In this document: piece by piece, positions 4,901 to 55,213 of the stretch
Position numbering within the stretch: position 1 is the first letter of the stretch
How the letters are laid out: every line of letters starts with the position of its first letter
Source: Straminergon stramineum
Lineage: Eukaryota > Streptophyta > Bryopsida > Hypnales > Calliergonaceae
Direction: 5' to 3'
NCBI GenBank assembly: GCA_963920665.1
Contig: OY987265.1
Coordinates: forward strand, 18,481,001 to 18,545,000
Length of the DNA stretch: 64,000 bases
The notes under the pieces: model-generated
The model's input: only the letters and a program-made list of their open reading frames with translations
What the model was told of the DNA's origin: nothing
The model's database searches: none
Made by a program: the position numbers and the translations under genes

Positions 4901-7900
4901 AATTCGAGCTTAAGAAAAGTCGAAATTCTTTGATCAATCTTTACATATCAAAGACTTATGTTCATGCCGGTAAAAAAAAGGACAATGAAATACGAGAATT
5001 TACCTTCTGCTGATAATCAGCCTTTTGTACTTCAGCAGCTAGCAAGAGGTCCGATATCTGAGCCATGGCATCATTAATCTGCATTCAATCCACACGTCAG
5101 GCAATTATTACTGGTGCTCTCATAGTCTACAAACCATTCTTAAGGTGGTGAGGAGCTTTACAATACAGAGGATTATCGACGGGAGCATTGAGACGCTGAA
5201 CTTTTATCATTCAATGCGATAAAAGAAATTTATTGATTGCAATTTCATGCAGGATTATAAAAAAACTGTAAACTCGACATTTTCGATACAATAGTATGTG
5301 AGTGCACCTGAACATCTTTGTCTTTCGACGCAATCTCAAGGTTCTCCAGTTTTCTTCGGAAGTGAGAAATTTCAGACTCTTTCTCCTCCACTTTCCTGAA
5401 GCAGAACAAAAAAGCATTAAGTCAACTTAGATAGCATATGAAAGTGCAGACCTCCTGCAGGCCACTTAATGACTAGAAGTTAGTGGGAAATTCTGGGCAC
5501 CTTTCAGTTTCCTGTAGTGCAGAAATTGCATGCTTCAACTCCTCAGCATTGCGGGTATTTGATTCTTCAAGAGCAGATTGAGTCACGAAAATGTGATTGT
5601 TCAATTTCTGCGACTCCATTTCTATGTCTTCCCTGAGCAGGCGCTGCCGTTCTGCTTCTCTCTTCAGTAAGCCCAACTACAAGCAAAAAGGAATAGAAAT
5701 AAACACTCCACATTCAGCAAGGTTGCAATGATCCCGCTGCAACCGTAACATTAATGAGAACAGTTTACATTTTCTCTAAAATCTCGACGAAATTTCAAGG
5801 TAAAATGTCATCAGGTGTTAGGGACACTTCAGTTAAGAGATGAGAACATTCGACCCACTTGGTTCTCTAGAGCGTAGACTGTGCTCTCCAACTCGTGCAC
5901 TGATCTTGTAAGGAGCTTGGCTTCGTCTTCTTTCTCCTTTGCATGAGTTCTGCTTAATTCTCCAGCCTGCACAACATGTAACTGATTATACGACAGGTTT
6001 AAGGAGCAATTGACTCGTGTTTTTTCAATAGAGTCCGGTATCAAAGACAGAATGATTTTTTAAATCCAACCACAAAGTAGTGAATTAGTCTGATCTACCT
6101 GGTGTAATTCAGAGACAACCGCATCACGCTCCTCTACCATAGTGTGCGTCATTTCCAGCTGCTCGGTTAATTCAAGGACTTCGATCTGAAGCCGGTCCCG
6201 TTCGTTTTCGACCTCCTTAAGATCGACAGTGACCTCTTCAAGCGTGTTCGCCATGTTCTGCTCTGCCATTCGCAACTCGTCTTCCAGGCTTTCAATGGTT
6301 TGCCGCTTCTTGTCTAGCTCGGTCTCCAGTTCGCAAGCCTTTGCTTTCCAGGTCCCGGCCTGGTTCCTCGTTTGGACGATCTCTTCTGTTAGTTGACCAA
6401 TCTCAATCTCCAATCTTGCCCGCCTTTCCTTTTGAATATTCACTTCCTGTTGCAAGACCTCTGCTGTAACGCGCAAAGAATCGAGCTCTTGATTAAGGCG
6501 GAGTTCCTGGAAAGCGGACTCCTGGAGTAAATTGAGATCAGATTCTAGATTTTGTAATAGCTCGTCTTTCTGTTTGAGGTCCCTCTCGAGTGCCTCCATT
6601 TCGAGCCTCGTCTCAACCTGCATGTTTTCTGCAGCTGTGGCCCGCTGTTGGTTGGCGACGACTTCGGCAGTAAGGTGTTTCACAACAGATTCCAACTCAT
6701 TCTTCTCATTCTCGAGGGATTCCAGTGCTTCTTGTTCGATAGAATGTCTGCTGAAATGTTCTTCCATTTCACTCTCCCGTATCTGGAGTTTTGCTTGAAG
6801 GTCAGCCACTACGGAACACCCTTCTTCAATTTCATTGATCAAATCTCGTCTTTCAGAATCAATCTCCTCTGTTCTGCGCTGACATTCTCGCAGCGCTTCA
6901 TAGACCAATTCCAATTGCTGTTTGCATTCCTCCTGAGTTGCAACTAGCTTACCCCTGAGAACAAATAATTCGGAGACTTTCTCATCCAGTTGTACCTCGG
7001 TCTCTTGACATCGTTGTTCCCAATCCCATAAATCCACTTCCATGGCTGCCTCCTGGGACTTCAGCTTTTCGACCTCATCTGACAGCAAGCGTACTTCCTC
7101 GTCCTTCTGTTTTCGCAGCTGAGCAAAAGAAGTCCTGGATTCCTCCAAAGATTTCTCGGAAGCTTGTCGTAGTTCTTTGATATCAGCTATTTCTTGAGAT
7201 AGGGAATAAACCTCAGCAGTGAGCACCAATTTATTTTTCTCAAGCTCCTTATTTTGCTGGAAGCAAGCGTCAAGCTGCGATTGAAAGAGCGAAAAATGGT
7301 TCACAACCTCCTGCGAGGATTGAAGCATCTCTGCGTTCTGCAGTTGACTTTGACTAAGAAGGTTCTCTAGATCAGATGCCATGGCATCCTTCTCTCTTGA
7401 TTCCTGGACTGCACTCTCAAGCATTGTTGTCAGGATTTCAAGCTCCAATTTCAGCTCCCAGGACGCCGTAGAGGATTCTTGCAGCTCGGTTTGCAGCCTC
7501 AATATTTTAATCTCTAAATCAGCGCACTTCCGTGACTTTATGTTAACTTCATCTCTGAATACTCTTTTTTCCGTTTCCAGGTTGTTTGCAGTTGCAAGAA
7601 TTTCATCCCTCTCATGCTCCAACTGAGCTGAAGCAACCATGGAAATCTCCAAAGAATTGTGCAATTTCAGAGTCTCTGCACTACTTTCCTGGAGGTTATC
7701 AAGCAGTGAAGATGTAATGCGATCCTTCTCTACCAATTCGTTTGAGGCGCTATCGATAATGGTTCTCAAAATTTCAAGCTCTGTCTGATGCGCAGCGGAT
7801 GCAGCGATGGCTTCCTGAGACTGCTTACAAAGCTCCAGCCTCTGAATCTCCAACCTCTCCAGAAGGTCATTCTTATTCTCTTCCAAAGCCTGACAACGCA

Positions 7901-10900
7901 CAATGCTTTGATCAAGCTTCTCTCGAAGTGACATCATCGTCTCGTGTTTCTCCTGCAATTCGCTTTCCATGGTAGTTTTCAAGATTTCAAGCTCTGTCTG
8001 ATGCGCAGTGGATGCAGCGCTGGCCTCCTGAGACTGCTTACAAAGCTCCAGCCTCTGAATCTCCAACCTCTCCAGAAGGTCATTCATGTTCTCGTCCAAA
8101 GCCTGACAGCGCGCAATGCTTTGATCAAGCTTCTCTCCAAGTAACATCATCGTCTCGTGTTTCTCCTGCAATTCGCTTTCCATGGTGGTTTTCAAGATTT
8201 CAAGCTCTGTCTGATGCGCAGTGGATGCAGCGCTGGCTTCCTGAGACTGCTTGCAAAGCTCAAGCCTCTGAATCTCCAACCTCTCCAGAAGGTCATTCAT
8301 ATTCTCGTCCAAAGCCTGACAGCGGGCACTGCTTTGCTCCAGCTTCTCTCGAAGTGACATCATCATCTCGTGTTTCTCCTGCAATTCGCTTTCCATGGTG
8401 GTTTTCAAGATTTCAAGCTCTGTCTGATGCGCAGTGGATGCAGCGCTGGCCTCCTGAGACTGCTTACAAAGCTCTAGTCTCTGAATTTCCAACCTCTTTA
8501 GAAGGTCATTCTTTTTCTCGTCCAAAGCCAGACAACGCGCACTGCTTTGCTCCAGCTTCTCGTGAAGAACAAATACCATGTGGTCTTTCTCCTGCACTTC
8601 CCTTGAGGTACTTTCGATAATGGTTTTCAAAATTTCGAGCTGTAATTCTTGTGCAGAGGATGCAGCACTAGCTTCCATCGACTGCATACAAAGCTGCTTA
8701 CTCTGCAACTCCAACCTTTCCAGGAGATTCTTCTTATCCTCTTCCAGAGCACTTACACTTACCGAGAGAAGCCTTTTCTCTTGTCCCAGCTGAGAAGCAG
8801 TCACCTGTAAAGAAGCAAGCAAAGACGAAAATTTGATATTGATTTTCTCTATATCAGATTTCAAGGTCTGTGCAGCATGCAGTTCACTGGAAGTGCTTTC
8901 TAGCATAGTTGCCATAATCTCCACGGTTCCATGGAATTCAGCTTCAGATTGCACGAACTTTTCCGAAGTACTTTCCAGCAAATTTTTCTGCGTTTCTGCG
9001 TGTGCCATTAAGTGCACCTCTCTCTCACCTAGTTCGTGAGTAAGCAACCGGAGATCATTAACTTCGGTAACAGCCGCATCCAAACTCCCCTGAATACACA
9101 CCACCTCATTGTGGCTGTTCTCTAGATCAGAGATGAGGGCATGTATAGTAACCTCCGTTTCCAAAAGCTTCGCAGCTGCTGCGTTAACCGCGTAATGAGA
9201 GGCAGCGAGGTCGACTTCGAATTTGCGAATCTCATCTTCAGCAGAATCCTTTTGCTGCCTGAGACTAACAACTTCCATCTCCACCACCTGCTTCATGCGC
9301 ATCGCATCTGCTAGTGAAATCTCAAGTTGCTTCACCTGACCACGTAAATGATTGTTTCCCACCTGCAGCATTTCAGTTGCTTCAATCAATGTAAGTTTCT
9401 CCATCTCCAGCTCTTTTGAATTAGCAACATTAATCCTCAACTCTTCGCACGTTTCTGTAAGCAACCCCTCCAGCTCTTGATTTCTTGTAGAGAGGTGATC
9501 GAACTCAACAGTTAACTCTGAAATATATGCACTCTTTCCAGCCAAGGAAGCCAGCGCTCCTTGAAGTTCATCTTTAGTAGTTGCATATCCTTTGTGTTGC
9601 AACTCCATGTTCTGCATTGCATCCTCTAGAGCTGCTTGCGATCCAACAAACAAATCTTGAGTTCTGTCAAGAGAAGCTTGCAGAGCCTCATTCTCCATGA
9701 CACTATGTTGCACTCTCTGCTCCAAGTCAGTCACCTTTGCATTCATCTTAGCGAGTTTCATATGTGCTCCATCCGTAGCATTTTCGATCTCAGAAATTTG
9801 AATCTTCATAAATTCCCTGAATTCATGGTCGAAGTCAGCTGCTCTCTCCGAACAAATGCCCGTGAGAAGCGTTTTCATCCCATGAATATCTGAACCCAAG
9901 TCCTGCAAATGTTTCTCCACATGATCCATGGTCACAGACACTTCCTCATCAATCATGCTGAGAACCTCATTACTCTCGAGAGTTATTTTCTCCCCCCTCG
10001 ACTTCCATTTGAGCACATCGCGCTTAGCAATTTCATTGGCTCGAACTAATGCATTCACAAGAATTTCTGCCTCCTTCAAAGTGGCCTGCCCGTCCTCAAA
10101 TTGTTTCCTCAACATTATCGCTTCAGTGCTCTTCTCACCGGCACAAAGTTTTGCATCCTCCATCTCTGCCTTCAATTTTTCAATCTGCTTACGCCATTCA
10201 AGAGATGATTCATCCATCTTCTCCTCTGTTCTTACGAGGACGTCCATGACCTTGTGCAACTCACATTCAAAAGTCTTCAATTCCACGTCTCTGCATCTCA
10301 CCTCATCCTGCGCATTCACAAGTGCTTTGCTAATGCTGGTGAGCTGCTGCTTAAGGTCACTCCTTTCGTCAACAAGGCATGCCAGTTCAATTTCCCGCTC
10401 CCTGCTGCTTGCAATAGTCGCACCCAGCTCCAGTTGTACTGACAAGAGAGTGGTGTCCTTGTCGAACACCTCTGCTCGTAGTCTTTCGCACTCACATCTT
10501 ACTTTTTCAACCTCTGTCTTGAGTGCCTCAAGATAATTATGGGAGAGTCTGACCCCTGATTTCGCAATTGCATTACTATCTTCGCAAGGACTAGGGACAA
10601 AGCAACTGCTTTTCTGAAGCTCCACCGAATATTGTTCCCAGCGAGACAGATCCGACTGAAGGGCTTCCTGCTTTGCAAGTAACTGTTGATTGGTGTCTTT
10701 CAACTCTGAACTTTTGTCGAAAAGTTGTTCAATAGCTGTGTCTGCAGCAGATAATAAGGACCGAGACTGTGCAAGATCCAAGGACGTCTTTTCTGCGCAG
10801 CTTTTCAATTCCATGAAATCCAGGGAAATTTGAGTAAGATGACTTGACATTTCTCCACTAGCAATACTGCATTGAGTTTCAAGTTCGCTGAATGTCACTT

Positions 10901-13900
10901 CACACTTCTTTTCGGTTACTATTATTTCGCCCTCCAACTCCTTCAAAGCATTGTAAAACATTTCTTGGCTCTCCGAGAGCTCTCGGTTAGCTGTGACAAT
11001 TCGGTCTTTCATCTGTTCTCTCTCAACATGCCACTGCTTTTCCAAAACTTTGAGTCTCTCTTTTAAATTGCCAAGGGTCATGGTGGACATGCGCTCCTTT
11101 TCATGCGACTCCTTCAAGCTCTTCTCAAGGCCATCAATCTGGCCTTGCAAGGATGAAAATTCCATCTCCCGACAAGCCATGCACCTTGTCAGTCTCTTAT
11201 TCTCCGCTGCAAGAGCTATGGTTTGAAGCTTCAATTGCTCTTCTGAACGCGAAAGCTCTTTCATCAAAAAGTTCGACGCACGCAGTTTTTCTTGAGTCTT
11301 GACAGCCTTGCTTTCCAATTCGGTCCAGTCTCGCTGGAGAACGGTGATATCCTCTTCCATTTTCATAATTAAGCAATCTTTATTGCCTAGATCCTCTTCA
11401 GCACGAGAGTTCTGAGTCCTGAGACTATTCTTAGCAGAAGATTCTGCAGTCAGAGTGTCTGAAAACCATTGTAGCATGATTGTGCAAACGGCAAAATTCC
11501 TCATGATGCCATCGGAGTGGTCGGTACCGCCTGCCTGTCCTGTTTCATTAATGTCCTTTCTTGCGGTAGGGGTTGTTGTCATATCCAATTGCTGCACATT
11601 GACAGACTCTTGTTCTTGCAATCTACCTTTGTCAAGGGCAGTCGGTTGTGATAAACAATCATCAAGTATCCCTTGCATCTCATGGACTGCATCAGTGAGG
11701 GCGTGTTCACCCTCATTAAGATGCTCCAGGAGTTTCGAGGTAGACGCATCCCTCTCTTCGCGTGCAATGTCATTCTCTTTCAACAAAGCCTCATTCTGTG
11801 CGGCCAAGTTCTTCCTCTCTTCCAGGACAGCTTGAACGACCCAAACCAAATCCTGTAGCTCCTTGACAAGCTCAGTTGAACTCCACTTCGTGACTGTCTC
11901 CGTTGGCTGATCTGATGTACCCTGTGGTTTCAGTTTCATGATTTCACTCTGCAAACAACGAATAGCTTGCACTAATTCCAGATCTACAGGGTTTATGTTG
12001 TTTCCATTGAGGACATGAAGGTCTCGATCTTCCACAAGATCAGACACAATCGATTCCACATTATGAATACCCTTTCCAGTCTCATCCGGCTCTACCTCTA
12101 ACAGAGCTCGATCCTCCACAGTATGAATCTCCTCGAGGGTGAAGTTTAACTTCAAGATACAATCCTTACCCTGTTCTAGATACGATGACTGCTTCCTCTG
12201 GGTCGTCGACGTCTCATCACATAGCCTAGCGATATTCTCTATCTCTTCTTTGGCAGATTCCCTTGATCTGGTATTTAAATAAGTGCACCCGCTTCCGAAT
12301 GAAAGTTCCAGAGATTTCAGGTCTTGCTCCAGCTGACTGATGCCGGCAGTTCTCTTGCTAACTAGAATATCTCGCTGTCGCTCATTCTCTGATGCCACAG
12401 AACAACTTGAACACATTCGTTCATCCTTTGTTGAAGACAACTTTTGTATCAAAGACTGAGCCTCCTTCAGCTCCTCCCGCAATTCAAGTTCCTGCAACCA
12501 AGATCATGTCATTGATTTATATCCATTGGATCCCATAATATCCCATTATGGCGGAATAGCAGGTTCGGACCCCACTTCTCTTTAGTCTGCACCTTCATGC
12601 TGTCGAAGTTCCAAACACATGGTACCGTATAATATTACTTGCATCTATGTGATTTGAGAAATTAACTGAGTCATCCGCGATCATACGTCGATTACCTTCA
12701 TGCAAGCTGCAACCACCGCATCTTCGGTATGCTTCAAGGACAGACGCTGCTCTTCTCCAATTTCCTTCGTCTCCAAATGTATTTGTCTAACAGCGTTCTG
12801 TGCTAATATAGCCATCTCCTGCAGCATAACTCATAAATTTAAAATTACTGCTACTATAAATCAGATGTATAAATCAGTTGTATAACTTGGCAGTACGAGC
12901 ATACGACCATCCGTTTAAAACTGAAAATTCTATTGACGAAACCAATACCTGAGCAACTGACAGGTCCGATTCCGCGGATTGTAACCTACACACAAGCATC
13001 TCAGCTGCATCCAATGCTCCCCTAGTTTCCTGAAGCACAGTAAGATATGCTGTGAGGTAGATGTATGCCATTGTTAGATTTCAAAGCACTGATGCAAATC
13101 TGTCCGATAAATAACTTAATTTTGACTAATTTTGACTAATATATATTCCTCACGATTTTTTTATGTTCTTTAGCAAAACACCAAGCAATTTTCAACTTTT
13201 CTTTAAAACTTCATTTTTACGCCGAACCTGCTATTCACCTGAGGTACTCTTCGTAAAGACATTGGCAAATCGAGTAAAAAGAATTCCATAAACGAAAGAA
13301 ATAATCTTTTCAAAAACAATACGTACCTGGAGATCTGCATGCAGATCCGCTGCTTCCCCTAAAGATGCGTTGAGTTGCTTATTGAGGTCAAAACGCAAGT
13401 TAGCTTCACGATCTGCTATATCCTCGCTCTGTACACAACGTCCAATGAAAATATTAATGCTATCCTGATTTTGTGCCGTTCAAATTCCTTTACTGAGAGC
13501 ACCAGGTGACCAATTTCTGCAGGGAATGTACCTGCTGCAATTTTATCTTAAGATTTGATATGAGCTCCAAATGCTGAGCATGGTCCCATTCAATAGCTTC
13601 AGTATCCAGTGCCTGCTCCTGCAAAAAAACGTGACAAAAGATTTTGTTAAGTGAGACGGAATCATGTGATACTTCACAGCTTAACCCAGACGTCTATTTA
13701 CTATATTCCAGAATAGTGAAGTTTACCCGAAGCTTTTGGAGCTCCACCTCACAAGCTTGGTGCTTCAATTTGACTTCCCGAAGCTCAGCATTTGATTCGT
13801 CGAGTTGCCTGCCAGAAGAGTCTAATAAGGTCTCTAGCCCAAAATGTTTAACTGAACTACGTCAAGCCCAAGACCAGCGAGTGTCCACTGAGCTATCGAT

Positions 13901-40918: not shown

Positions 40919-40929
40919 ATATACTACAA

Positions 40930-40939
40930 GAGAATAGTG
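40930..40939 (+). other. Target-site duplication, left copy
   Basis: GAGAATAGTG, identical to 55121-55130. A 10-bp duplication is in the range of MULE elements (usually 8-11 bp). Confidence 0.92.
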
Positions 40940-40990
40940 CAACGAAGCTAGTATACGAGCGTAGAGCGGGAGCGTGGAGCCTAGAGCGGG
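40940..40990 (+). repeat. Left terminal inverted repeat of the 14.2-kb element
   Basis: After seven poorly matching outer bases the sequence GCTAGTATACGAGCG, TAGAGCGGG, AGCGTGGAGC follows. It pairs with the right end except for a 7-8-base insertion in the right copy and a few substitutions. Confidence 0.88.
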
Positions 40991-41104
40991 GAAAATTGAG
41001 TAGGGATTTGGAGAATAAGGAGAAATTTTAAAAAAACTTATTTTTGGGATAAAAAAAACAGACATTTTTGGGGGGAATATTGGGAATTATAAAGAATTCC
41101 GGGG

Positions 41105-41229
41105 GGTTTAGGGTTTAGGGTCCTATAACCGTGGACATAAATGTTGGACTCAAACGTAGGACTGGAATTTGTAACCATCCTTCTGTGACCTAAAAGTATT
41201 CATATGCACTTTATAGCCTATAACCGTGG
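41105..41229 (+). promoter_or_regulatory. Left subterminal motifs: telo-box run and CCTATAACCGTGG x2
   Basis: GTTTAGGGTTTAGGG lies at about 41107-41120. CCTATAACCGTGG occurs at 41122-41134 and 41217-41229. Inverted copies sit near the right end (55033-55045, 54946-54957), so the arrangement is symmetric, as expected of transposase binding sites. The role is inferred. Confidence 0.6.
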
Positions 41230-41811
41230 ACATGAACCTATATTCGTGGATGCAAAATGCTGGATTGAAACCTCTAACCACCCTTATGTGACATGATAGC
41301 ATGGATATATACTTTCAAACCTGTAAATCCGGACATTGGGTGGGTTTAGGGTATAAACGGGAGTAGTTTCCTGTTCATCTATTATAAAGTGGATTTTGGA
41401 AATGGAGTGAATTCATAGACAGACAACGGCAAACATTGTTTCCATGAATTTGTAGAATCTGAATGCGTAGTTTTAAGACTTAAAGTACATAGAAATCTTT
41501 AGAGTCTACAAAATGGATAGGGGTCCTGGAATTGAATAGAGTCGATGGAGTTTTTGTTGTGATCAATATATACATGAAGTCATTTTAAGAAAGCCAAACA
41601 TTGAAGTCAATCTTACAAGAAATCATGCCAAAGTGAAAAGAGGTGCAATACAAGTCAGAAGTAGACATGAGTATAACCAAAGATAGCATAAATAAAGTAG
41701 TGGCCCTTTTAGTCTCACTACATGTACTAAGTGAATGGAAATACAAGGAATTCTTTCATGTGTACCTCCTCACTACTTCTGTACGAATTGTCTTGAATTA
41801 ATTAAGGTGAC

Positions 41812-44800
41812 CTATGTATTTTGGGTGCACCTCAGGATCCCGCACTCAAGAATCCGCTTGATTTCATTGAAGCTGAAGCTTGGAGCATGAATGAAAACAT
41901 CCACCTCTGCATCCAAGTTGCATATGACAATAAATAGGAAATATAAGTGCTTGTAGTTTGCCCATTGTCCTCTCTTCCCTAGTGCCTTTGTTGACATTTC
42001 CTTGAAATTAGGACAACTGCAATCTGGAAATGAACCTATAGTAATCATGTATTGCTGTACATTAGGGGCTATACCTGAGTCAAGGGTTACGATGCACCCG
42101 AACCCACGATGTGGTATCAATGTAACCTGCCAAACAAGAGCCTTGACCGTAAGTGCTGAAGTGTAGTTGTTTGCTTGTTTAGTTGTGGGAGAGCTGGAAT
42201 TCCTACGAATTTTCTTGCCAGACCTTGTACCGGAGTGTTTTGTAGGATACGGTGGGACTTCAAATTCTGGCACTGCAGGTGGTACATTCTGGTTCACAAA
42301 CAACCTGCGCGGAGAGATTTCAAGACGTTGGGGAAGACGGAACCCCGCATTTTGAAGATCTAAAATCTCTTTAGGCGTAAGATGAGTTCCAAACTTCACT
42401 GGCCAAATGCTTGGTACTTCAGGTTTGAACATAACCCATTTTCTCTTTGAACCTTTGACGCAATGCTCAATGTCATCATTGCAGAAGAAGAATTGCATCC
42501 GCTCAATCCTGTTCTTCTTGTAATTGTCCATGTCACCTGTGTAAGTTGGTGCGGCAGTTCCTTTATTGCCTTGCACAATCCTTGCGATGCACTTCTTCCT
42601 AGTAAGGGCTTGTAAAGCAAAGCAAGCCTTAGCCGACGTCTTGGGCAAGCGAGCAATATGCCATTTGGATTCATCGCAAGTACTCTCTTCAACACTTGTC
42701 ACTCGAAAAGAGCCCGATGTTGTTGAGGCATTCATAAGGTTCTCTGACACCTGTGGCTCTTTTTCAGCAACATGAAGTAAAGTTTCTTCAGAAATAGTCT
42801 TCAGAGAAATCACACCTGCATTTGCTCTGGTGCATCTTGTTCCTACACGGGGTCGGGAGAAATTCACCTTGTCGGGGCAGTGCGAATCATGTTGCAAACC
42901 TGGAGGTAAGTTTGGCATCCGCTGTTGAGATCCAAAAACTTCTTCACCTTCTAAATGAGGATTTCTTGTACAATATTCTCCAACACCCGGGACAGTTGCC
43001 ATAGCATCATGAAGGTTACTAGGATTCTCGGTGCGTTGAGCATATCATTGTGCTACTCGGAGGCGAAGTTCTTCTTTGCCCGGACCGGTTCCAAGGTTCT
43101 CACCTTTTAGAAATTGGTAGTATCTAACCATCTGCATGAATGCCCTAACATAATCATCAACGGTTGCCACATATAGATCATTCCCTCTCTTTCCAGACTG
43201 CTGAAGCCATTTATTGTGGACCATCTCGGCGAGGTTGCAGGAGGGCATCTCTGCAAGTTCATTCGTTGGCAAATCCTGAACCATTAGACAAGTGTTAGAG
43301 ATATGAAAAACAAATAGTTTTGTTTTTAAAAGGCTAGCAGACTCGACCAGTAAATTAAGCGGAAGGCTTCCACATAGGTCAATGAAGGCAACATCGACCC
43401 ATTGGAGGCAATAATTACAAGCTACTACAAGAAACTAGAGAATGCAAAGTGTATGAGGAGAATTGCACACCGAGAATTGAAATGGATGGGTTTAAATATT
43501 CTTACAATCTGCATGAAACCTCCCCATTGCCTGTATCGGAAGTGCCAAAATGCTAGCCACAGCTCTAGTCGTTTAATCCCCTCCTCTGTTGTGGCTCCCG
43601 AAGAGTGCCACCATGCACGAATAGCATGAAATCGGATATCAGACTCGGATGTTGATGTTGCATCCTTGTACTGCTTGCATAACATTCGATGCTGATCTCT
43701 TAAGTCGGCACGAATGTCTGCTACCGTATGTTTCTCCATTGACTGAGTCCAATGGAAGAGACATGTCCGTTCTCGATCTACCATAGGACTCAGAGGGTCA
43801 CCACTTCCATATACAATGCGCACCGCATTCCAGTTTGCTTGTGCACAATCCGCCATGAAGCCCTTGAAATACGGCAAGGCAATACCATGCCTACTCATTA
43901 CTGCGTTCAAATTAGTCCAGAAAGATGTTTGAGCAATGGAATCCTCGGATTGCATGTCGCAGATAGCAATGGTCATGACTCTACAGTAAATGGAGTCATA
44001 AACATGACAGGCAATGGTAGTCCACTGTTTCACTCGCTTGACATGATCAAACATAATCCAAGCATCTCTGAGATCACCACCAGGTTGCATTCGTGTTACT
44101 AAATCGACGCCACTCCTTGGACCAACCTCGGACATCTTGAAGACAAATACTTTGTCTGAATCAGATCCTTGCCCGGGGAACTTGTTCTCCTGAACATAAG
44201 CCCAGTTACTACAACCTCGTAACTTCGTGATGCTATCCATGACTCCAAATCTTCGAAAGTACTTGAAGGTTGCGACTTCATTTCTAATGCTGGGAGAACT
44301 CATGAACTTGCACTTCTCCAGAACTGGCATGAGATCGTCCAACCCAATAGGAACAATAGGGGCTCCTTCCGGTTGAAGAAGCATCTCCCCTAAGAACTCC
44401 TTGCTTGCCTCTAAGACAATAGAAGAATTTGTAGCTGAGGGGTTTCTCTCAACTTGATCCGAAATTAGGGTTTGAGTCCTTTCCTTGGAGTCACGACAAT
44501 CTCCAACTTTCACAGGGTGCTCATGGACTCCAAAGTGAACACACGCCCGTCGCATGTTTGCCGTGCCGACTACATAGTGTATTTTCGCAGGGCAATTTGC
44601 AATACATGAAGAAACCATAGAGCAAATTTTACAAGTAATTGTTGAATCGGAAGGGGGGGTAGAACCAACCTCAAATGGAATAGGAGAACATCCATCCCAT
44701 TCGGTTTCGTTAATGAGCGCTACGCGGTGCCTTCGCATGAGATAGTCGCATTTGCTATTGTCGCAACGTAGATGACCGACACAAGAAGAAGATCGGAATG

Positions 44801-45608
44801 TGAGAGCATCATCGTTCTTGATGTCCGTCGTATGTGTATTCGACCAGACGTGTCCATCATAACGTTTCTCCATTCCACTCATAAGTTTCGCTTGTCCTTG
44901 GAAACCATTACTACCGAGGGGCGGTAACTCAAAAATCACATCACCGTTAAACACAGGTGGAACAAATTCAACGTGATGGATGGGAATTAAATTGTAGTCT
45001 ACCTTCTTGAATGGATTCCTCGACCCTTTCATGTGACAAAGCTTGTGTAGACAAGAAATTATAGATTGGCATGCTCTAGAACTAGATGTGGCTACATTCT
45101 CTACTGGAGAAGGCGAAAACAAAGTGCCAGGGACTTGGATCGAGGAAAGCTGGGTTTTCCTAAGGAGCTTGTGAGGAGGTGAGCGTTCATCTGAGTCATC
45201 GTTGTCTATTGCTATGACCTCTACTCCAGGTTCCATCTTCACTTTGTTAGGCAAACATGTTTTCGGCGTAGAAGTAGATGATAGCCGAGGAGTTCCATCA
45301 CCACAGGACGCCTCGGAGAGCACCTGAGATAGATCGTACGCTAAATATTTTCCTGGCATTAAATGCCAATGCCGACACGGGCCTAAGGATACAGGCTCGT
45401 GACTTAGGGTGTGCAACAATTCTCCACTTGTAGTATCGAAAACCTCCTAATCTATATGTAGTGACGTCTCAACTAAGAGGAATCTCATACTCAATCGCAA
45501 TGCACTAACAATAGCAAACCCGGCATCTTCGACTTGAAAGGAGATTGGTACCGCTTGCCCGGGTGCCCGAACAACTACCATTGATTCAGAAGACATACTT
45601 GAACTCAT
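41812..45608 (-). CDS. MULE-type transposase (WRKY/GCM-like finger, DDE core, SWIM finger)
   Basis: Probable transposase of the 14.2-kb element. Exon 1 is 43506-45608 and exon 2 is 41812-43275, joined in frame at MQI|DLPTNE, about 1,190 codons. A WRKY/GCM-like finger lies at about 44500-44780: CDNSKCDY, CKICSMV, NCPAKIHY and FGVHEHPV. In the catalytic core MFDHVKRVKQW may hold the first Asp. FMADCAQANW holds the second Asp at 43848-43850. CLFHW is the C-x2-H insertion typical of MULEs, and TTEEGIKRLE is a candidate Glu. A SWIM finger, CSCPNF followed by YKHLYFLF, lies near 41930-42025. Two stops interrupt an otherwise open frame: TAG at 45447-45449 and TGA at 43045-43047. The start ATG at 45606-45608 is the first Met of the extended frame. 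This copy is therefore probably non-functional. Confidence 0.8.
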
Positions 45609-46742
45609 CCTAGAGAAATACAAACAAAGATCGGTGTAATACTAAAGTATGAAATCACTCAAGATGAACATGCGATGGACATTAGCACCACCAATCATAA
45701 GAAAGATTAATCTCTCAGATCCAGACAAAAAAAGATATGCACGATGGAAAAGCGGAGACATGGAAGAGGTGAATACCCTTACTGCAGTATACGACATAAT
45801 ACAATAATGGGTTCACGAATTCATTCACTGGTAAATTACCACCGTTGTCAGAATCCGCTTCTACTCTAACGGTAAGTCTGTTAATGAATATCACAAATAC
45901 TAAGTTTCAAACATTTTCTGACCTACGTTTAGCATATATGATGTCAAGAACAAACATTCAGTCATAAACAATGAAATGTATTACCTGTCGATGTAAATGC
46001 GTCATTCTGAAGCATGATATCTCAGTACGTTCAATACTCAATTATCATATTAAGTAAATAAATCATATTCTCGACTAAATGAGGGATCCCTCAAATTTTT
46101 GACGTTATATTCGCGATTGTGTTATACAGTAAGAAGTTTTGTATGGCGCTGCACCATTCATTGCCAACGTCATATGATTCCTACCAGATTAGGGATACTC
46201 CGCATTAACTATTCATTTGATACATCAATACAAAAACCATGACAATAGTAAGTACTAATATTCAATAGGGCTCATCACAGATATGCAATCCAATAAGGAA
46301 CAAAATAATAACCCGAAGCAAGGGACATGAATGTCGATGTCAAAACATATGTTATTCCAAATAATGAACTCCCACACGAAGCCTTCCGGCCTTCTTGGAT
46401 CCACCACGGGGAATGGCGTCGGCAACCCTAATCGCTATGCAGGCCAAAGGACGACTTTCATCATTTCCAACAATGCCAGGATCAACACATCCTAGCAACC
46501 TCATTCCTCCCTTCCCCTATCGTTTATGCAATTCATCTTCTTCATTCGACTCTTCTGGCATTACCGAGTTCTCCAACACATTAACAGAATGGAGCGCAAT
46601 CTTCGACTGCGGCGAGGCCAAGCTGTGGTGAGCGTCGCGGATTCCGGGACAAGAGCATCAATTCCAGATCATACAAATGCTTCACTAGAGGTATAATCCT
46701 TGAACGCATTTCTCACCGAGGTCCCTCCTGTGACTGGATTTT
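45609..46742. other. Spacer between the divergent element genes
   Basis: About 1.1 kb that should contain the transposase promoter on the minus strand. A plus-strand open stretch at 46395-46631, with Met codons and a Ser/Pro-rich translation (PTMPGSTHPSNLIPPFPY), ends at the donor-like CTGTG|GTGAGC. It could be a first exon of the ParB-methylase gene with the repeat array in its intron, but the phase does not fit the next recognised exon, so this is only a possibility. Confidence 0.4.
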
Positions 46743-48770
46743 AGATCCCCTATTGAAACTGAGAGGCGACGGCGCAAGAGCCTGCCCTCTGCCTAGTGGC
46801 TCTCGGCACCGAGAGGGCTCCCCGAGGGTGCAAGGTTATACGCCTGCCCTTGCAATTTCATATTACTGTAATTTTCATTTTGATTTGGTATGTGTCCGTT
46901 TTGGATTTGATCTTGGTGTCGGGAGACCAAGTCCCGGCCCCTGTGACTAGATTTGGAATCCCCTGTTGAGACTAGATGGCGGCGATGCAAGACGCTACCC
47001 TCCGCCGAGTGGCTCTCGGCACCGAGAGGGCTCCCCGAGGGTGCAAGGTTATGCGCCTGCCCTTGCAATTTCATATTACTATAATTTTCATTTTGATTTG
47101 GTTTGTGTCCGTTTTGGATTTGATCTTGGTGCCGAGTGACCAAGTCGTGGCCCCTGTGACTGGAAATGGGATCCCCTGTTGACACTAGGCGGCGGCGATG
47201 CAAGAGGCTGCCCTCCGCCGAGTGGCTCTCGGCACCGAGAGGGCTCCCCGAGGGTGCAAGGTTATGCGCCTGCCCTTGCAATTTCATATTACTGTCATTT
47301 TCATTTTGATTTGGTTTGTGTCCGTTTTGGCTTTGATCTTGGTGTCGGGTGACCAAGTCCCGGCCCCTGTGACTGGAAATGGGATCCCCTGTTGAGACTA
47401 GGTGGCGGCGATGCAAGAGGCTGCCCTCCGCCGAGTGGCTCTCGGCACCGAGAGGGCTCCCCGAGGGTGCAAGGTTATGCGCCTGCCCTTGCAATTTCAT
47501 ATTACTGTAATTTTCATTTTGATTTGGTTTGTGTCCGTTTTGGCTTTGATCTTGGTGTCAGGCGACCAAGTCTCGACCCTTGTGACTGGATTTGGGATCC
47601 CCTGTTGAGACTAGGTGGCGGCGATGCAAGAGGCTGCCCTCCGCCGAGTGGCTCTCGGCACCGAGAGGGCTCCCTGAGGGTGCAAGGTTATGCGCCTGCC
47701 CTTGCAATTTCATATTACTGTCATTTTCATTTTGATTTGGTTTGTGTCCGTTTTGGCTTTGATCTTGGTGTCGGGTGACCAAGTCCCGGCCCCTGTGACT
47801 AGATTTGGGATCCCCTGTTGAGACTAGGTGGCGGCGATGCAAGAGGTTGCCCTCCGCCGAGTGGCTCTCGGCACCGAGAGGGCTCCCCGATGGTGCAAGG
47901 TTATGCGCCTGCCCTTGCAATTTCATATTACTGTCATTTTCATTTTGATTTGGTTTGTGTCCGTTTTGGCTTTGATCTTGGTGTCGGGTGACCAAGTCCC
48001 GGCCCTTGTGACTGGATTTTGGGATTCCCTGTTGAAACTGGGTGGCGGCGACGCATGAGGCTGCCCTCCGCCGAGTGGCTCTCGGTACCGAGAGGGCTCC
48101 CCGAGGGTGCAAGGTTATGCACCATTCCATCCAGTTTTGTATTACAGTAATTTTGATTTTGATATGGTGTGTTTCCATTTTGGATTTGATCTTGGTGCCG
48201 GGTGTCCAAGTCCCGGCCCCTGTGACCGGAAATGGGATCCCCGTTGAAGCCAGGAGGCGATGGCGCAAGAGGCTGCTCTCTACCTAGTGGCTCTCGGCAC
48301 CGAGAGGGCTCCCCGAGGGTGCAAGGTTATGCGCCATTCCATCGAGTTTTGTATTACTGTAATTTTGATTTTAATATGGTGTGTTTCCATTTTGGATTTC
48401 TGCTTGGTGCCGGGTGATCATGTCCCGGCCCTTGTGACTAAATTTTGGGATCCCTTGTTAAGACTGGGCGGTGGCGACGCAAGAGGTTGCCCTCTGCCCA
48501 GTGGCTCTCGGCACCGAGAGGGCTCTTCTAGGGTCCTTGGTTATGCGCTTGCCCTTGCAGTTTCATATTACTGTAATTTTGATTTTGATTTGGTGTGTTT
48601 CCATTTTGGATTTGGTCTTCGTGCCGGGTGACCAAGTCCGGCCCTTGTCACTAGATTTGGAATCCCCTAGTGGAACAGGGCGGCGGCGACGCAAAAGCCT
48701 CCCTCCTGCCCAGAGCCTCTCGGCACCGAGATGGGTCCAGAAAGGGCAGGGTTCATGCGCCTTTGGCATC
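46743..48770. repeat. Tandem array of ten 213-bp units with a conserved palindrome
   Basis: Unit landmarks (GTGGCTCTCGG) start at 46796, 47009, 47222, 47435, 47648, 47861, 48075, 48287, 48501 and 48713 (last copy GAGCCTCTCGG), a spacing of 212-214 bp. Every unit contains CTCTCGG-CA-CCGAGAG, a 7-bp-arm palindrome. In the seventh unit the centre is TA, which makes a perfect 16-bp palindrome; the tenth has one arm mismatch. Next to it lie CCCCGAGGGTGCAAGG and TGCCCTTGCAATTTCATATTA. The array sits between the two divergent genes of the element. Long open frames on both strands follow from the repeat length being a multiple of three and from the low stop content; I do not call them genes. Confidence 0.92.
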
Positions 48771-48895
48771 CCTTTGATCAATTCATTTTTTCAGGAGGGT
48801 CGCGTTGGGATTTTACTTGTATTTTATATGTTTGAGTTTAATTTATATATCTAGAGTTGGAGGATGTTTTCATGCATTTGGTTGTTTCATATTAG

Positions 48896-51800
48896 GTTGC
48901 TCTTCATGTGATACCCGATGCGGATTCTGTACCCGTCATTGCCGATCATGCTGCCCAGGAGGTGGGTGCTGCCGACTTGATCATTGAGTCGCCTGTGGTG
49001 AGCCGAGATGCCTTCCTTGTCCACCGAGAAGACCCTCTTATCAAATTCTTCAGGAGTGGCGAGATACTTCCAGCTGATTCTAGCTGCACTTCTGTTGGTG
49101 ATAACCAGTTATTTCCTGTTGTTATTACCTCAATGGATACCACTGAGTTCTGCACTTGTGGCCACGAGGATGTAGAGGTCACATTAGGTTTAGAGGAGGA
49201 TGATGATATTCTTATATTTTGCTGTGGCCAATACCGGGCCATCAATAGTGTTTGCGATTCCTCTATCTGTATTTTTGTTTAATCAGTGAATTTGAATGAT
49301 TTTATGTAATCAAAATCATTCATAATTTCGTACTATTTTATTAACTTGGTGATCGTTTCAGAGTTCATTTAATGTTCATAATGGGATAATGTGACTTGCA
49401 AAATGCATGGAAGCAGTTGTATTGCACTGTTGGTAAATTTGTATTCCTTCTTTCCGTGATGTAGATTGGGCATGACATTGGGACTCTGGACTCTCCTACG
49501 AAGTCCACCGGATCGCCAATGATGGACATCAGTCCTCAACCAGCAATTGAATCGTTCATAGAGATTGATGATGTCGATGAAGAGCATCATCTTGCACCAG
49601 AGGATACTTATACGGAAGATGACATTAGGCGGACACAGAAGATTGACACTGTCTCTACCATTTCCAGTTTGAGACTGACAGCGTCAAACCTCTCCCGAAT
49701 GAGAATTCTTCTTTGTCGGCTTATACCCATGCCGATGGTTCGCCCTACTTTATCTTGTGATTTGATATTATTAGAGCAACAGTTTGTCCACGGATATGAG
49801 GAAGGCGCTCGTGTATTCTATATTTCCATTGTAGATGAGTAGGGACAGATAAGTGTGTTCACAGATGAGGAGAAGGAAGAATGGGGACCCTTGTGGAACT
49901 CGGTGAACGACGACTTCAACAAGCACCTCAGGTCTAAGGCAACACTCAAACATTTGGTCGACCACAAGTTCTACATCTGCGACGGGAATCACCGGAGGCT
50001 GGCATGGATGAATCACATTGAGCGGTTGCACAAGTCAGACAGAGAATGGCACATCTCGGTAGATTCCATTGTCTTGGATACAAGAAATCGTATTGGCGTT
50101 GCAATGCAAGTCATGCACGATATCAATAAGTAAGACCTCTTATGTTTTAGTTGGAATTATTTTTGAATTCAACATTACTCGGCATGTATTAGGGTTCATG
50201 TCTTCATTTGATGTTGACTGTGTATTTCATGTGAATTGTTTCTCAGGCACACTGAAAACTCCCACATGAAGACCAACTTGGTATACACGCTATACCGTGT
50301 CCAGAAGTATGGGGTCATGGAACTAGACAAGTTCAATGAGCTCCTTAGTCCGGAAGAGGTGAAGACTTGCCAACAAAGTACACGGAAGACTTGGTATACT
50401 ATGCCACTAGAGGTTTTCACTTCTTTCATTTTCAAGGTATATGTTTCATATTTGTTTTCGCTTTATTTTTTGGTAGGGATTATTACAATGATTTCTATAA
50501 TAGGATATCCTTCAATGTCATTCTAACTTATTGTTTGACTTTGCATCCAGCAAGAAATTGCTGCGGCAGCTGATGCTGCAGTCCGAAAATATAATGAGGA
50601 TACTGCTCTGGAGGAGTTCTCTAAGGAGGGTGTCGCGGCAGCTATGAGGACTTCTATAAAGGAATCCACAGAAAAGTTGTACAAGAAGCTATCTAAGATA
50701 GTCTCCGTTGCCAATCCTGCCCTTGGTCGGGATTGGATGGAGGAGGTATTATGCAATTCTACTCGAGTTTGTGAAGTTACCATGTGCAATTGAACTCAAT
50801 TATTCATATTATCTCCTTCAACTTCTCGCAGATCGAAAGGCATTGGAGTCTTTATGCCCAGCCGGAGTTGACCTTGGAGAAGCTTCAACTGATAGCCACC
50901 GCCAATGTAAGTCCAATTCACAAAGTGAAATGGCTAAAGTGGATTAACGCCTCGGGTCCATCTCGAGAGGCACATCGACTTCCTCCGCGCCCAGTCAATG
51001 AGGAGAAACTAATGGTCTTCCTCTGCAAGGCATGTTGGTATGCCGGGGTAAAACTCTTTACATTCCTCTGCTTGTTCGTGACATTGTGCTGTTGTTTGTG
51101 ACTTTTATTTTATACTAGAATCATTATATCCATTCTTTACTCATTCGAGGATTGCCCTCATGTGTTATTGCTTTGGTTTACTCGAGTATCGATGGAGGAG
51201 GTATGCGTGGAGATGTTTGATTCCATTGTTCGGGCTGACAATATTCCAATCAACTACTCAGTCCCCACTGAACCCCAAACACTCATTGAATATTTGGAGG
51301 GGTGGAGAATGAAGTTGTGGGATCATGTGTACTCAGGGATATTCAAGGGCAGTGAGGCCTTCAAAAAGTCAGATTCCTTCAAGGATTATAGGGGAGCAAT
51401 TCTGGCTGTGAAGCGATTAATATACAGGTTTGTCTCTAGTTATTATTCTTTTTTGTTGTAATGCTTTCATTCTCTTATAATTGGTTGTCTACACATCTAG
51501 CTACTTCTCCGCCCTCTCCCTTTATTTTTTTCTAGAATTGTGGATGTAGTGTAGTATTTCTTTGAATTTCAACCTCGCCCGCGAGGGGACCCTATTGAAA
51601 GCATGACGATACTGAGAGATGTGTTTTGACACTAGAATTTATATCCCAAATACAAATTTCTTACCAATCATGTTCAACTTCATGAATTCTATGCCGCTAA
51701 GTCCAATGCCTTCCTATACTTGTACTTGCAATTTAGTGATTATAGTTTAGGCGTTTCCTTTATCGTTTTCATGTGCAATTTGTAATGTCTACTTGCCTTC

Positions 51801-54159
51801 TCAATTTTCATCATCGATTTTGAATATCACGATAAACGTAAGAACCAACTAGTATTTGTTTTTAACATTCGAGGTCTTGACCGCAATCATGTTTCTATTC
51901 TTACTTCACTTTCACATCTTACTCACATGTGCAAGTATTTCAAGTTCGAATTGTATGACAAGAAAGCCATAGAGAAGGCAGACTTACCATCGTTCCTCAC
52001 CACTTGGTTGGACCGATCTTCTCCGGACTACATGTTCTCTTCGTACCAGTTGAAGAACTGGACAACTCCGCATCTCCTAGCTTGTCCGTGGTATTTGGAA
52101 TGCAACCAAGGCTTCACTCCCCAAGATGAAGAGCAACTCTTTCGGACATTGAAAGAGACAGCAGTCTTGGAGCCTGAATTTGATGAATTCAGGGGATTGG
52201 ATGCCGAGGCCAAAGCTAAAGCCATTATGCGATGGGAACTTTCCGATAAGAGGAAGGAGGACCGCTGGGAGGTGGCGAAGAAGAAGACTGAGGAGAGCAA
52301 GAAGAAGAGGCTTGCGGCTAAAGCTGAGAAGGACCAAGAGAAGGGCAAGAAGAAGGGAACGAAGAGGAAGGCGGAGACACCATTGCAGGAAGCAGCAACA
52401 AGTGCCGCTGATGTGAAAGACACTTCATCGGGGTTCTCTCTTACTCAGGAGCGCCTTCTGCATAGACCGACGCCAACGATCCAGAATTTGGACCCTGTCC
52501 CTGACATTGATGAGTGTATTCTCAACCTATCCGTAGGTAGTTTGAACAGTTCAGGGAAGGGTCCAAACTCTACGTTTTACCAAGACGTCCTAAATTTCCT
52601 GGATATGGTAAATTTTACCTTCCACTTCACTTGACACTGTGAACTTTAAACCAATTACAAAAGCAGGACTGAAGTTCACTTAGTCCATTTCTTTAGCTCA
52701 TTGTTGTTCTTCAATTGTCGGTTCACGCTACATTATTGATGAAAATTTTTACTAATTCATTTATTCTATCTTTAATTTCTTGGTGCAGCATTCAGGAGAC
52801 AAGGACCGGTACTTCAAGGGTACTCTTAGCTCACAATCAGCAGTCGACCTGATCATTGTCGACGTTCCTAAAGGTCTTCATGTTCCAACCGTATCGGTTC
52901 ACCCAAGCCCTATTCCAAAGTGGAATGAGTTTGGGGATGAATACTTGATGCCCATTTTTGACTTTGTTCTTGAGTATTTGCAGGACCGTGGCAGTATTCT
53001 GATCATGTACCCTTCTAGTCGGACCCACAAAAGCCATGTTCTCGGATGCTGTCAAGAATACGGGTTCAAGATTGTCCAAACATGGTTGGGCATGAACCGT
53101 TTACATCTCACATCCCCAGCGGATCCAAATCTGACGGTACATTATATTTCATGGATTCCACGTTTGTCTTGAATTTTCTTTTCAATTGGATTACATTCTT
53201 ACCCAGCTTCTTTTGCAGACTATGAGGTTCACCATCTCTCTTGTGGTCAAAGAGAATGCGCCCCCATTTGTTTTCCAGAAGGTGCCATCTCATGATGCAG
53301 TTGGTGTAAATGTTGCTAAAGACGACATCCTCCAGAACTTCTGTGGCAAAGATGACGTGGTCATGAATGGCGACAAACCATGGCGGGGTCCTCGTGAGAA
53401 GGCCCGACCTTTCATGCAGATGCTCATCGAGGCATGTTCGCAGCCTGGAGACGTCATTATGGACTGTACCGCAGCTACTGGTTTGTTTCTTACTTTCCTT
53501 TCCGGTTTGTCTCATAAAAATATGTCATCCATTCAGTTTTATTGCCACTTGCTCATATCTGCTTGGTTTCTTATCAGGTTCCAGCATTCAGGCTTGTCGG
53601 GCTACGCGTCGTCATATTCTTGCTTTTGAGGAGGATAAGGCTATCTTTGATGCTCTCATTGCTCCTGTCATGCGCACTACGGTGGTTCCTCAAGCTCAAC
53701 CATCTCCCTTGGTTGTTTCTTCCATTGATCTCGATGAGGAGGAGGTACTACCCCAACGTATCGTGAAGACTTCCCGATTCAGTAAGTAAGTTCATCTTTA
53801 ATGTCCTCGACTTCAAATCTTTGTCACCATGTACAGGTATTTTGTTCAATTGTCCTAATGTGTTCTTTCCTGCTTTGTGTAGGCAAGCCCAAGATGTGAA
53901 GAACCGCAAATATGTACCGTTCTTTGCGGCACCGGGCTTTTTCCCAAGCCCTCCTAAACCATATCAGCTCCCGGTCTATGCTGAGGCCATTTCCAAGGAT
54001 TTTGTTGCTTTCAACCCTAGAATAGCTTCTAGGGCCCATTCCATAGATCCCCGCATTCTGGATTTTGTTGATGATTGTGCTCTAGAGTCGGATTTGCAAA
54101 CATCTAATAGTGAGGGTAGTTCGACCTCAACCCACTCCGGTTCGAGTACGGACATATAG
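48896..54159 (+). CDS. ParB-like domain fused to N4/N6-type DNA methylase domain
   Basis: Multi-exon gene of the 14.2-kb element. Exons with consistent phases are 49465-50129, 50247-50436, 50551-50745, 50832-51047, ~51150-51427, ~51800-52607, 52789-53136, 53219-53480, 53578-53785 and 53883-54159. The first recognised exon begins at 48896; its donor and the true start are unresolved. Domains: an acidic N-terminus; a ParB-like fold with ILLCRLIPMP and the signature FYICDGNHRRLAW (49966-50005); helical segments; a Lys-rich stretch (52250-52380, nuclear localisation likely); then a permuted amino-methyltransferase with motif IV at DLIIVDVPKG (52849-52878), EKARPFMQMLIEA, and motif I at DVIMDCTAATG|SS. 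The usual DPPY is DVPK and the usual FxGxG is TAATG, so activity is doubtful. An in-frame TAG lies at 49840-49842. ParB-methylase fusions are known from phage and bacteria. Substrate and function are unknown. Confidence 0.75.
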
Positions 54160-54945
54160 TACTCTTGTGTTTCTACCGCATGATGGTAGTGCAGAATTTG
54201 GAGATTTTGGTTTTTCATTTCTATCAGATCTTGACTTCGTTACGATTTCCATGTTGTAGTCTCTAAATGAGATTGTGTTTCCAACATGTTATTCTAGTAG
54301 GATTACTGTGAACCAAGAACACCATGTTCTAGACACTCATTGTGCATTTTCTTCACTATGTGACTAATTAATCTACTGACACTCTTGAATTCCTAAACTC
54401 CTTGCCCTTTCATAAACAGACAATGACATTGTTATCAAAATAGCTTTGTGTTGAAAAGGCAAGGAGACTATTACTTCAATGGTGCCCTGTAGAATGAATA
54501 TGTCATATGCTGTAGAGAATGCACGGTGAGTGTCTAGTATATGGTGAGCTCGTGGGCACTTTCTAATATTTCCCTTAGGAATTTGCGACCCTACACAAAT
54601 TCCTAAACTTATAGGGCTTCCAATTAAATAGAAACATTTGTACCCCGATTGATTTTGATTATGAATAAAATTTAGAATCGTTGAATATAAGGGCTTCAAT
54701 GTGTTCCCCTTTTCAAAATATAATTTGATGTACATCTATAGAATGCATGAATCATGGGCATTGTTATGAATCCATTGATATGAAGATGTATACTACACAA
54801 TTGATATCCCGAGCATGTGTATGCTAATTTGTTCAAGTAATAAATATGTAATTGTACATCCTCTTCTGCAACTATTATGCTTACATCATGTCCACAAATT
54901 GATGAGGTCACCTCTCCGCTTCAAAGACTAGACCCTTTGAAATTT
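54160..54945. other. 3' flank of the ParB-methylase gene inside the element
   Basis: AT-rich, non-coding on both strands as far as I can see; probably the 3' UTR and spacer up to the right subterminal region. Confidence 0.5.
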
Positions 54946-55120
54946 CACGGTTATAGGTCAACGTGGGATACTTAAATTTTAGAGACTAAAACTTTGACAC
55001 AAATTAATTCCACGGTTTTAGGAACCCTAAAACCACGGTTATAGGCTTCATTATTTTTACATAAAGTTTTTGCTCCACGCTCACTTTTTCCCGCTCCACG
55101 CTCGCGTACCAGCATTCCCC
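54946..55120 (-). repeat. Right subterminal motifs and terminal inverted repeat
   Basis: On the minus strand the end reads GCTGGTACGCGAGCG, TGGAGCGGG, then AGCGTGGAGC, matching the left end. Inside it are CCTATAACCGTGG (55033-55045), CCTATAACCGTG (54946-54957), a variant CCTAAAACCGTG (about 55011-55022) and a TTTAGGGTT telo-box-like motif, mirroring the left side. Confidence 0.85.
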
Positions 55121-55130
55121 GAGAATAGTG
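55121..55130 (+). other. Target-site duplication, right copy
   Basis: GAGAATAGTG, identical to 40930-40939. Confidence 0.92.
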
Positions 55131-55213
55131 TCAATTTAGACAATTTCTTGTCAATTTGGACACTATTAGTCAATTCGGACATGTCAATTTGGACACGTTT
55201 TCTTGTAGTGATA

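Follow-up and report, generated by a model that had tools for sequence, protein, structure and literature searches.

The DNA analysed here is a stretch of 64,000 nucleotides from Straminergon stramineum (contig OY987265.1), called the window below, and the subject is a transposon at positions 40940 to 55120 of it. Two genes lie within this element (Table 1). Gene 1, on the minus strand, encodes a transposase-like protein, and gene 2, on the plus strand, encodes a protein with a ParB fold and a methylase-like domain. The 5' ends of both genes face a 2-kb array of 213-bp units that contains ten copies of one palindrome core. In this genome the two genes are found together, both appear to have been under long purifying selection, and the palindrome is kept in the intergenic region of copies whose repeats are otherwise largely unrelated.

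Table 1. Features of the element in the window copy (positions are those of the window)
Feature	Position	Strand	Basis
Target site duplication, left copy, GAGAATAGTG	40930..40939	.	direct reading
Target site duplication, right copy, GAGAATAGTG	55121..55130	.	10/10 identical to left copy
Left terminal region, imperfect inverted repeat, CAACGAAGCTAGTATACGAGCG...	40940..40990	+	recurrence genome-wide
Right terminal region, GGGGAATGCTGGTACGCGAGCG... reversed	55072..55120	-	recurrence genome-wide
Left subterminal motifs, TATAACCGTGG	41124..41229 (41124-41134, 41219-41229)	+	motif count
Right subterminal motifs, TAWAACCGTGG	55010..55043 (55010-55020, 55033-55043)	-	motif count
Older CACTA-ended MITE-like repeat split by the insertion	40922..55210 (40922-40939 plus 55121-55210)	.	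joined flanks
Gene 1, transposase-like	41812..45608	-	start codon and intron (about 43276-43505) by analyst's reading
Tandem array between the divergent genes, 9.4 copies of 213 bp	46727..48738	.	tandem-repeat count
Ten exact palindrome cores CTCGGnnCCGAG, all ten TCTCGGnnCCGAGA	46802..48730	.	exact match
Palindrome core starts	46802, 47015, 47228, 47441, 47654, 47867, 48081, 48293, 48507, 48719		
Gene 2, ParB-fold and methylase-like protein	48896..54159	+	exons by analyst's reading, first exon uncertain
Gene 2 exons, first part	49465-50129, 50247-50436, 50551-50745, 50832-51047, about 51189-51427	+	analyst's reading
Gene 2 exons, second part	51936-52607, 52789-53136, 53219-53480, about 53578-53786, about 53885-54156	+	analyst's reading
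ParB-fold domain (DGNHRR)	49699..50129	+	domain searches
N6_N4_Mtase-like domain	52789..53650	+	motif IV region DLIIVDVPKGL, motif I region DCTAATG

The element is flanked by a perfect 10-bp target site duplication (TSD), as the original prediction had stated. The joined flanks form a short repeat of about 100 bp that is bounded on either side by a CACTACAAGA-like end. This fits an older repeat, resembling a miniature inverted-repeat transposable element (MITE), that was interrupted by the element. The repeat contains GTCAATTTGGACA subrepeats, and the window has 17 matches to CACTACAAGAAAA-like words where 3.3 are expected. In the genome (326 Mb in 59 contigs), the left end was matched at 45 sites (at most two mismatches) and the right end at 79 (at most three), with no match to the reversed controls. 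Because both end sequences recur genome-wide, the element ends can be considered established, and together with the TSD they bear out the claim of one mobile unit. The ends were also said to be matching terminal inverted repeats (TIRs). They are real ends by their recurrence, but the TIR is short and imperfect, since by eye CAACGAAGCTAGTATACGAGCG and the reversed GGGGAATGCTGGTACGCGAGCG agree at 13 of 22 positions, of which a single one falls among the first 7. When the outermost 400-460 bases were aligned locally, they gave only gapped subterminal similarity, with a score of 41.5; of 300 random window pairs used as a control (median 19.5), 2 scored higher. The motif TAWAACCGTGG is present twice at each end of the window copy and absent from the interiors of the 11 copies counted. 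The symmetry claimed for the subterminal motifs holds for the window copy, but the exact form is absent from one or both ends in several copies.

A family of copies is represented in the genome. Correctly oriented end pairs no more than 45 kb apart were formed by 27 of the 45 left ends, leaving 18 left and 52 right ends unpaired, and about 30 of these right ends are one variant that accompanies subfamily C. The paired ends span 2.7-39 kb, with 18 of the 27 spans in 12-17.5 kb. Among the 26 pairs besides the window, ten whole copies and half of an eleventh were examined; one C-type copy and one D-type locus were added later. Twelve copies (E0-E10 and one C copy) were delimited, of which six have a perfect 10-bp TSD, five have one or two mismatches, and one has a TSD shifted by a C-run. 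Of the ten complete copies besides the window, nine hold both genes, and the tenth is a 2.7-kb internal deletion. A majority of copies without the ParB-methylase gene, which would speak against a paired element, was not seen in this genome.

The pairing was explored further through the matches to each gene. The transposase query gave 67 matches, in which one locus figures twice (scoring covered the best 66 of 1178 candidates); they fall into identity groups of about 80-100%, 66-80%, and 54-58%. The methylase-exon query gave 150 matches (the best 150 of 665 candidates), including a further group at 39-50% identity. The groups were named A (that of the window), B, C, and D, with borders set by the analyst. 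Among the matches listed, a divergent gene-2 homologue is present within 30 kb of 63 of the 67 transposase matches, with a median distance of 9.9 kb, compared with a mean of 0.44 and a maximum of 4 when positions were randomised. Among the listed gene-2 matches, a transposase accompanies 8 of 11 in A, 17 of 26 in B, 31 of 70 in C, and 6 of 43 in D. Six B transposases pair with a D-type gene 2 (C3:17.58, C6:4.04, C2:15.16, C9:1.79, C11:3.12, and C3:28.07 Mb). These elements have a window-type left end but lack a right end to match it. The arrangement suggests that subfamilies have exchanged halves, with the array as a possible point of exchange.

Ratios of nonsynonymous to synonymous substitution (dN/dS) were obtained by simple Nei-Gojobori counting, with dS near saturation and decayed copies included. 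Between the window and B copies, the core exons of gene 2 gave 0.09-0.10 (dS about 1.4), and the exons of gene 1 gave 0.10-0.12 (m2), 0.07-0.12 (m3), and 0.16-0.21 (m4). The first exon of gene 2 evolves faster (dN 0.26-0.59 vs B copies, dS mostly saturated). Since dN/dS is near 0.1 between subfamilies, both proteins appear to have been under long purifying selection. At the D locus the same gene-2 architecture is found at about 37-65% protein identity. Thus the pairing and the purifying selection bear out a dedicated accessory gene. Gene 2 was not seen as an ordinary host gene without TIRs; the one candidate followed, a long open frame at C5:11.48 Mb, was rejected as a single-copy host gene, being an element-like copy with two stops and the exon layout of the elements.

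The window copy was also predicted to be autonomous, and this is not borne out, because both of its genes carry in-frame stops (TAG 45447-45449 and TGA 43045-43047 in gene 1; TAG 49840-49842 in gene 2). In the exon pieces of 11 copies and one half copy (E0-E11, five pieces left out), 45 of 74 stops differ by a single C-to-T change (on either strand) from the sense codon that most of the remaining copies have there, which is consistent with decay of methylated DNA. A stop at an identical codon of gene 2 exon 2 is shared by the window copy and E6 (C1:11.47 Mb), which belong to different subfamilies.

The protein of gene 2 possesses a ParB-N fold. Its second domain matched PF01555 (N6_N4 amino-methyltransferase) with 30.6 bits against a cut-off of 26.7 (E 4.1e-7) in the first member, and all four gene-2 members matched at a limit of E 10; single exons gave no Pfam match at E 0.1. 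The catalytic motif IV of these enzymes is (D/N/S)PP(Y/F/W), in which the aromatic residue and one proline are expected for base flipping and catalysis. DPPY is present in none of the 14 gene-2 sequences. In its place, 11 of the 14 have D-V/M-P-E/K, as DVPK (E0 and E9), DVPE (E1, E2, E3, E5, E6, the C copy, and L041), DMPK (the D locus), or DMPE (L072, D-type); the others have NVPE (E8), DVLE (E4), and DVHE (E10). The motif I region, DCTAATG, is split by an intron at 53481 and is largely conserved. Because the altered motif IV is kept across groups and in another organism, a selected new function seems indicated rather than decay. The domain is probably a catalytically degenerate beta-class amino-methyltransferase, and classical methylation by it is probably weak or absent. 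Thus the ParB fold and the methylase domain of the original prediction stand, but motif IV is non-canonical in 14 of 14, and the label "methylase" may overstate the protein.

Protein searches with single sequences and with profile A1 found no relatives, and only the ParB-plus-methyltransferase profile A4 found protein relatives, over the ParB exon. Among the matches listed, 120 metagenome proteins (P0001-P0120, 16 of which were read) resemble single exons of gene-2 homologues, apparently of eukaryotes without annotation; some of their contigs are hundreds of kilobases long. No relative of the ParB or methylase domain was found in viral contigs, a phage tblastn search gave one chance-level match (E 2), and the best match to the gene 2 profile in a PDB sequence search was DpnA at E 0.27. 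A single-sequence fold of the 96-aa ParB fragment from the window was poor (predicted local distance difference test, pLDDT, 49) and was not used.

For gene 1, the original prediction was a transposase of the Mutator-like element (MULE) type. Invariant residues of alignment A3 (D467, D533, CxxH 562-565, and E628) are compatible with a DDE transposase of the MULE type. By eye, a SWIM-like CxC..CxH is present at the C terminus, with the C of CxH replaced by Y in the window copy, and CxC..CKH lies near the C terminus in the B and C sequences shown; there was no Pfam SWIM match. SWIM-type zinc fingers are described as common but not universal among MULEs, and MULE TSDs as 8-11 bp long (PMC6446971), a range that includes the 10-bp TSD of the window and other copies. 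Long TIRs, typical of MULEs but not universal, are not present at the element ends. A Pfam search of gene 1 matched no transposase family, and the genome has 26 PF10551 matches, none of which coincides with a listed element (compared by eye). An hhalign comparison of the gene 1 profile with two MULE open reading frames (ORFs) of the genome was negative with very shallow profiles, and a PDB sequence search with this profile gave a best E of 1.4, which is not meaningful. The TSD length and general build agree with the prediction; the profile searches lend it no support, and the short TIR does not fit the typical MULE pattern. The MULE label is a structural inference based on the 10-bp TSD, the C-terminal CxC..CxH, and the general build; the family is probably one of Mutator-like DNA transposons.

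The central palindromic repeat array was borne out (Table 1). The ten exact cores of the window all lie within the element, and none is found outside it, even at one mismatch. Array units are 213 bp (E0), 117-118 bp (E1-E5), 234 bp (E10), 236 bp (E6), 215 bp (E8), 288 bp (the C copy), and 331 bp (part of the D array). From group to group the units share little sequence, but CTCGGnnCCGAG is present in them. Exact cores, 1-10 each, were found at 11 of the 12 loci with the intergenic region read (E0-E6, E8, E10, C, and D), against 0.003-0.006 expected from composition. Of the 52 cores, 51 are TCTCGGnnCCGAGA, and in 18, mainly of A, C, and D, the outer pair is C..G and palindromic (CTCTCGG..CCGAGAG). 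Nested outer palindromes were rejected as a general feature, with only 11 of 52 units at or below 3/100 against shuffles, mostly in E10.

Genome-wide, the 16-mer CTCTCGGnnCCGAGAG, which misses the B form of the palindrome, has 354 sites, and its reversed control has none. Fifty of these sites, all on C1, were listed. Five clusters that precede listed gene-2 homologues account for 48 of them, and the other 2 stand singly elsewhere. One of the clusters belongs to a C-type element (C1:15330422-15354232), where at least 28 sites recur every 289 bp or at twice that distance, over 8 kb of array. The CG-centred CTCTCGGCGCCGAGAG has 32 sites, 17 of which have a gene-2 homologue among the matches listed no more than 6.5 kb downstream. 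In 2.9 million viral contigs, used as a negative control, the 16-mer occurs once each in 30 contigs and forms no clusters. Elsewhere in the window, an uninterrupted ORF of 2147 aa (6063-12503, minus strand), coiled-coil-like by eye, holds a 213-bp tandem repeat (7760-8561) with the period of the transposon array and a different sequence.

The palindrome was also found beyond this genome. A 4.7-kb record, L041 (CADCWO010000058.1), filed under an uncultured Synechococcales metagenome-assembled genome (a cyanobacterium), encodes a gene-2 homologue that is 30% identical in the ParB region and intron-split by the analyst's reading. The filing is likely to reflect eukaryotic contamination in the record. 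The opening 360 bases of the record contain three exact cores, which precede the ORF by 0.2-0.5 kb. Judged from this one sequence, they are an independent test of palindrome conservation.

Several known systems can be compared with this element. In algae, transposon accessory proteins that combine ParB-like and DNA methyltransferase domains are described for Sola1-1_Ec32 of Ectocarpus and for green and red algal cases, and were proposed to act on their own transposon (PMC12477816). As in those algal systems, a large DNA transposon here encodes a ParB and N4C/N6A methyltransferase protein on the strand opposite the transposase; the algal proteins were compared by description. Unlike Sola1-1_Ec32, the transposase is MULE-like, the TSD is 10 bp, and the host is a plant. 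The algal account does not mention palindromes in its main text and, as far as consulted, describes no selection analysis or degenerate motif IV. In Arabidopsis, VANDAL21 has noncoding tandem repeats with a nine-base motif that is bound by VANC21 (PMC5735166); the binding protein induces methylation loss at the repeats, which turn over rapidly (PMC5735166, PMC10398659). The target motifs vary by VANC protein, being YAGTATTAY or AGTTGTCC/AGTTGTAC (PMC5735166, PMC10398659). Like VANDAL and VANC as described there, the present family joins a MULE-type element, an accessory protein, and a motif in fast-diverging noncoding tandem repeats. Unlike VANC, one palindrome core is constant across subfamilies while the surrounding unit changes. 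VANC is not known to be a ParB-fold protein. The closest working analogue is VANC, and we propose a similar role for gene 2 at the shared promoter region. The palindrome array upstream of gene 2 would correspond to the site of a ParB-parS system, in which the protein binds a palindrome near its gene; unlike the bacterial and phage ParB, Noc, KorB, and ParB-methylase proteins, gene 2 is eukaryotic and intron-bearing and has a long extra inter-domain region. Fungal transposons that encode a TET/JBP dioxygenase (PMC12730594) likewise carry an epigenetic enzyme gene, and differ in enzyme, host, and presumed chemistry.

The explanation toward which we lean is a two-gene transposon family in which gene 2 reads the palindrome array and controls the shared promoter region. 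Two co-evolving genes would be read divergently from the intergenic array, with gene 1 as the putative transposase and gene 2 as a site-specific DNA-binding accessory that joins a ParB fold to a probably catalytically degenerate methyltransferase domain. The gene 2 protein would most likely recognise TCTCGGnnCCGAGA, be bound many-fold in the array, and control the promoter either by protecting the region from host silencing or by coordinating both genes. It is suggested as the reader because a ParB-fold gene adjoins constant palindromes in fast-changing repeats. The data show the signature of mobility, the gene pairing, the purifying selection on both genes, the two domains, and the conserved palindrome; the reading and its anti-silencing or regulatory outcome are what we infer. 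In a more specific form, which is possible if improbable, a ParB-parS-like machine made of a ParB clamp and a dead methylase as DNA-reading module would load at TCTCGGnnCCGAGA arrays, spread along the element, and keep the promoter open to counter host silencing, with the core kept across organisms as its surroundings turned over.

Several observations weigh against this explanation. Four of the 67 listed transposase matches (C9:17.94, C4:19.51, C5:7.35, and C3:13.79 Mb) have no divergent partner among the matches listed; the one at C5:7.35 Mb has a gene-2 match 6.7 kb off on the same strand. E9, an A copy, has no exact core and no detected array, and the 1.8 kb of upstream sequence read for L072 shows cores with one or two mismatches and none that is exact. 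Among the matches listed, 15 of the 32 CTCTCGGCGCCGAGAG sites have no gene-2 homologue within 6.5 kb downstream; these may be remnants or belong to unlisted copies. In 29 of 52 cores, those of B, the outer pair is G..G and not palindromic (GTCTCGG..CCGAGAG), and only 14 positions are common to the groups because the outer base pair differs. Copies compared within one subfamily give higher dN/dS ratios (0.10-0.93), which would be expected from the decay of recent copies. In every copy translated, one or both genes are interrupted by a stop or a break in the frame, which leaves present activity unproven. Palindrome binding, expression, and methylation effects of gene 2 are putative, and the reader could be the transposase or a host factor.

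If the palindrome were instead bound by the transposase or by a host transcription factor, it could serve as a promoter or enhancer for both genes, with gene 2 otherwise employed. The position of the array between divergent genes would fit, as would the lack of a computed result that ties gene 2 directly to the palindrome. However, 48 of the 50 16-mer sites listed lie within element intervals, which is unusual for a host factor, even if 15 of the 32 CTCTCGGCGCCGAGAG sites are without a listed gene 2 close by, and the palindromes are about 6-8 kb from the ends of the window copy, where transposase sites are expected. A palindrome of 14-16 bp beside a ParB-fold gene also resembles ParB-parS. This alternative seems doubtful. 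It is also unlikely that gene 2 is an active methyltransferase that marks element DNA with N6-methyladenine or N4-methylcytosine at or near the palindromes. Pfam does recognise the domain, its motif I region is largely conserved, and algal proteins of the same architecture carry a similar proposal (PMC12477816), but without DPPY in any of the 14 sequences the expected aromatic residue and one proline are absent.

The array could instead be a hitch-hiking satellite, with the palindrome as residual homology or a source of small-RNA hairpins. Array length, from none detected in E9 to at least 28 sites at C1:15.33 Mb, would agree with this, but A, B, C, and D keep the core in units that are otherwise largely dissimilar, and L041 has it too, so that a satellite is very improbable. 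MULEs tend to acquire host gene fragments (PMC6446971), and gene 2 might be Pack-MULE-like cargo, captured from the host or a bacterium and without function in the element. This was rejected as hardly credible, being contradicted by the 63/67 pairing and dN/dS near 0.1; the architecture shared with the D locus at about 37-65% identity also stands against it.

The type of accessory protein is already known, since it is reported in algal transposons (PMC12477816). As far as the literature searches show, the MULE-like plant element, the quantified gene pairing and selection, the degenerate motif IV, and the palindrome array are new; for the array, no print report was found in a limited literature search, none of it aimed at palindromes. 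As far as consulted, the algal account (PMC12477816) does not give a binding target for its ParB-methylase accessories. A candidate target is supplied here, one palindrome core that lies between the two genes and is conserved across subfamilies and in another organism. With it, element-encoded, sequence-specific anti-silencing becomes directly testable outside the Arabidopsis VANDALs. The family also hints at a methylase domain that may act without methylating. If gene 2 is indeed the reader of the array, eukaryotic transposons would have taken over ParB-type DNA recognition.

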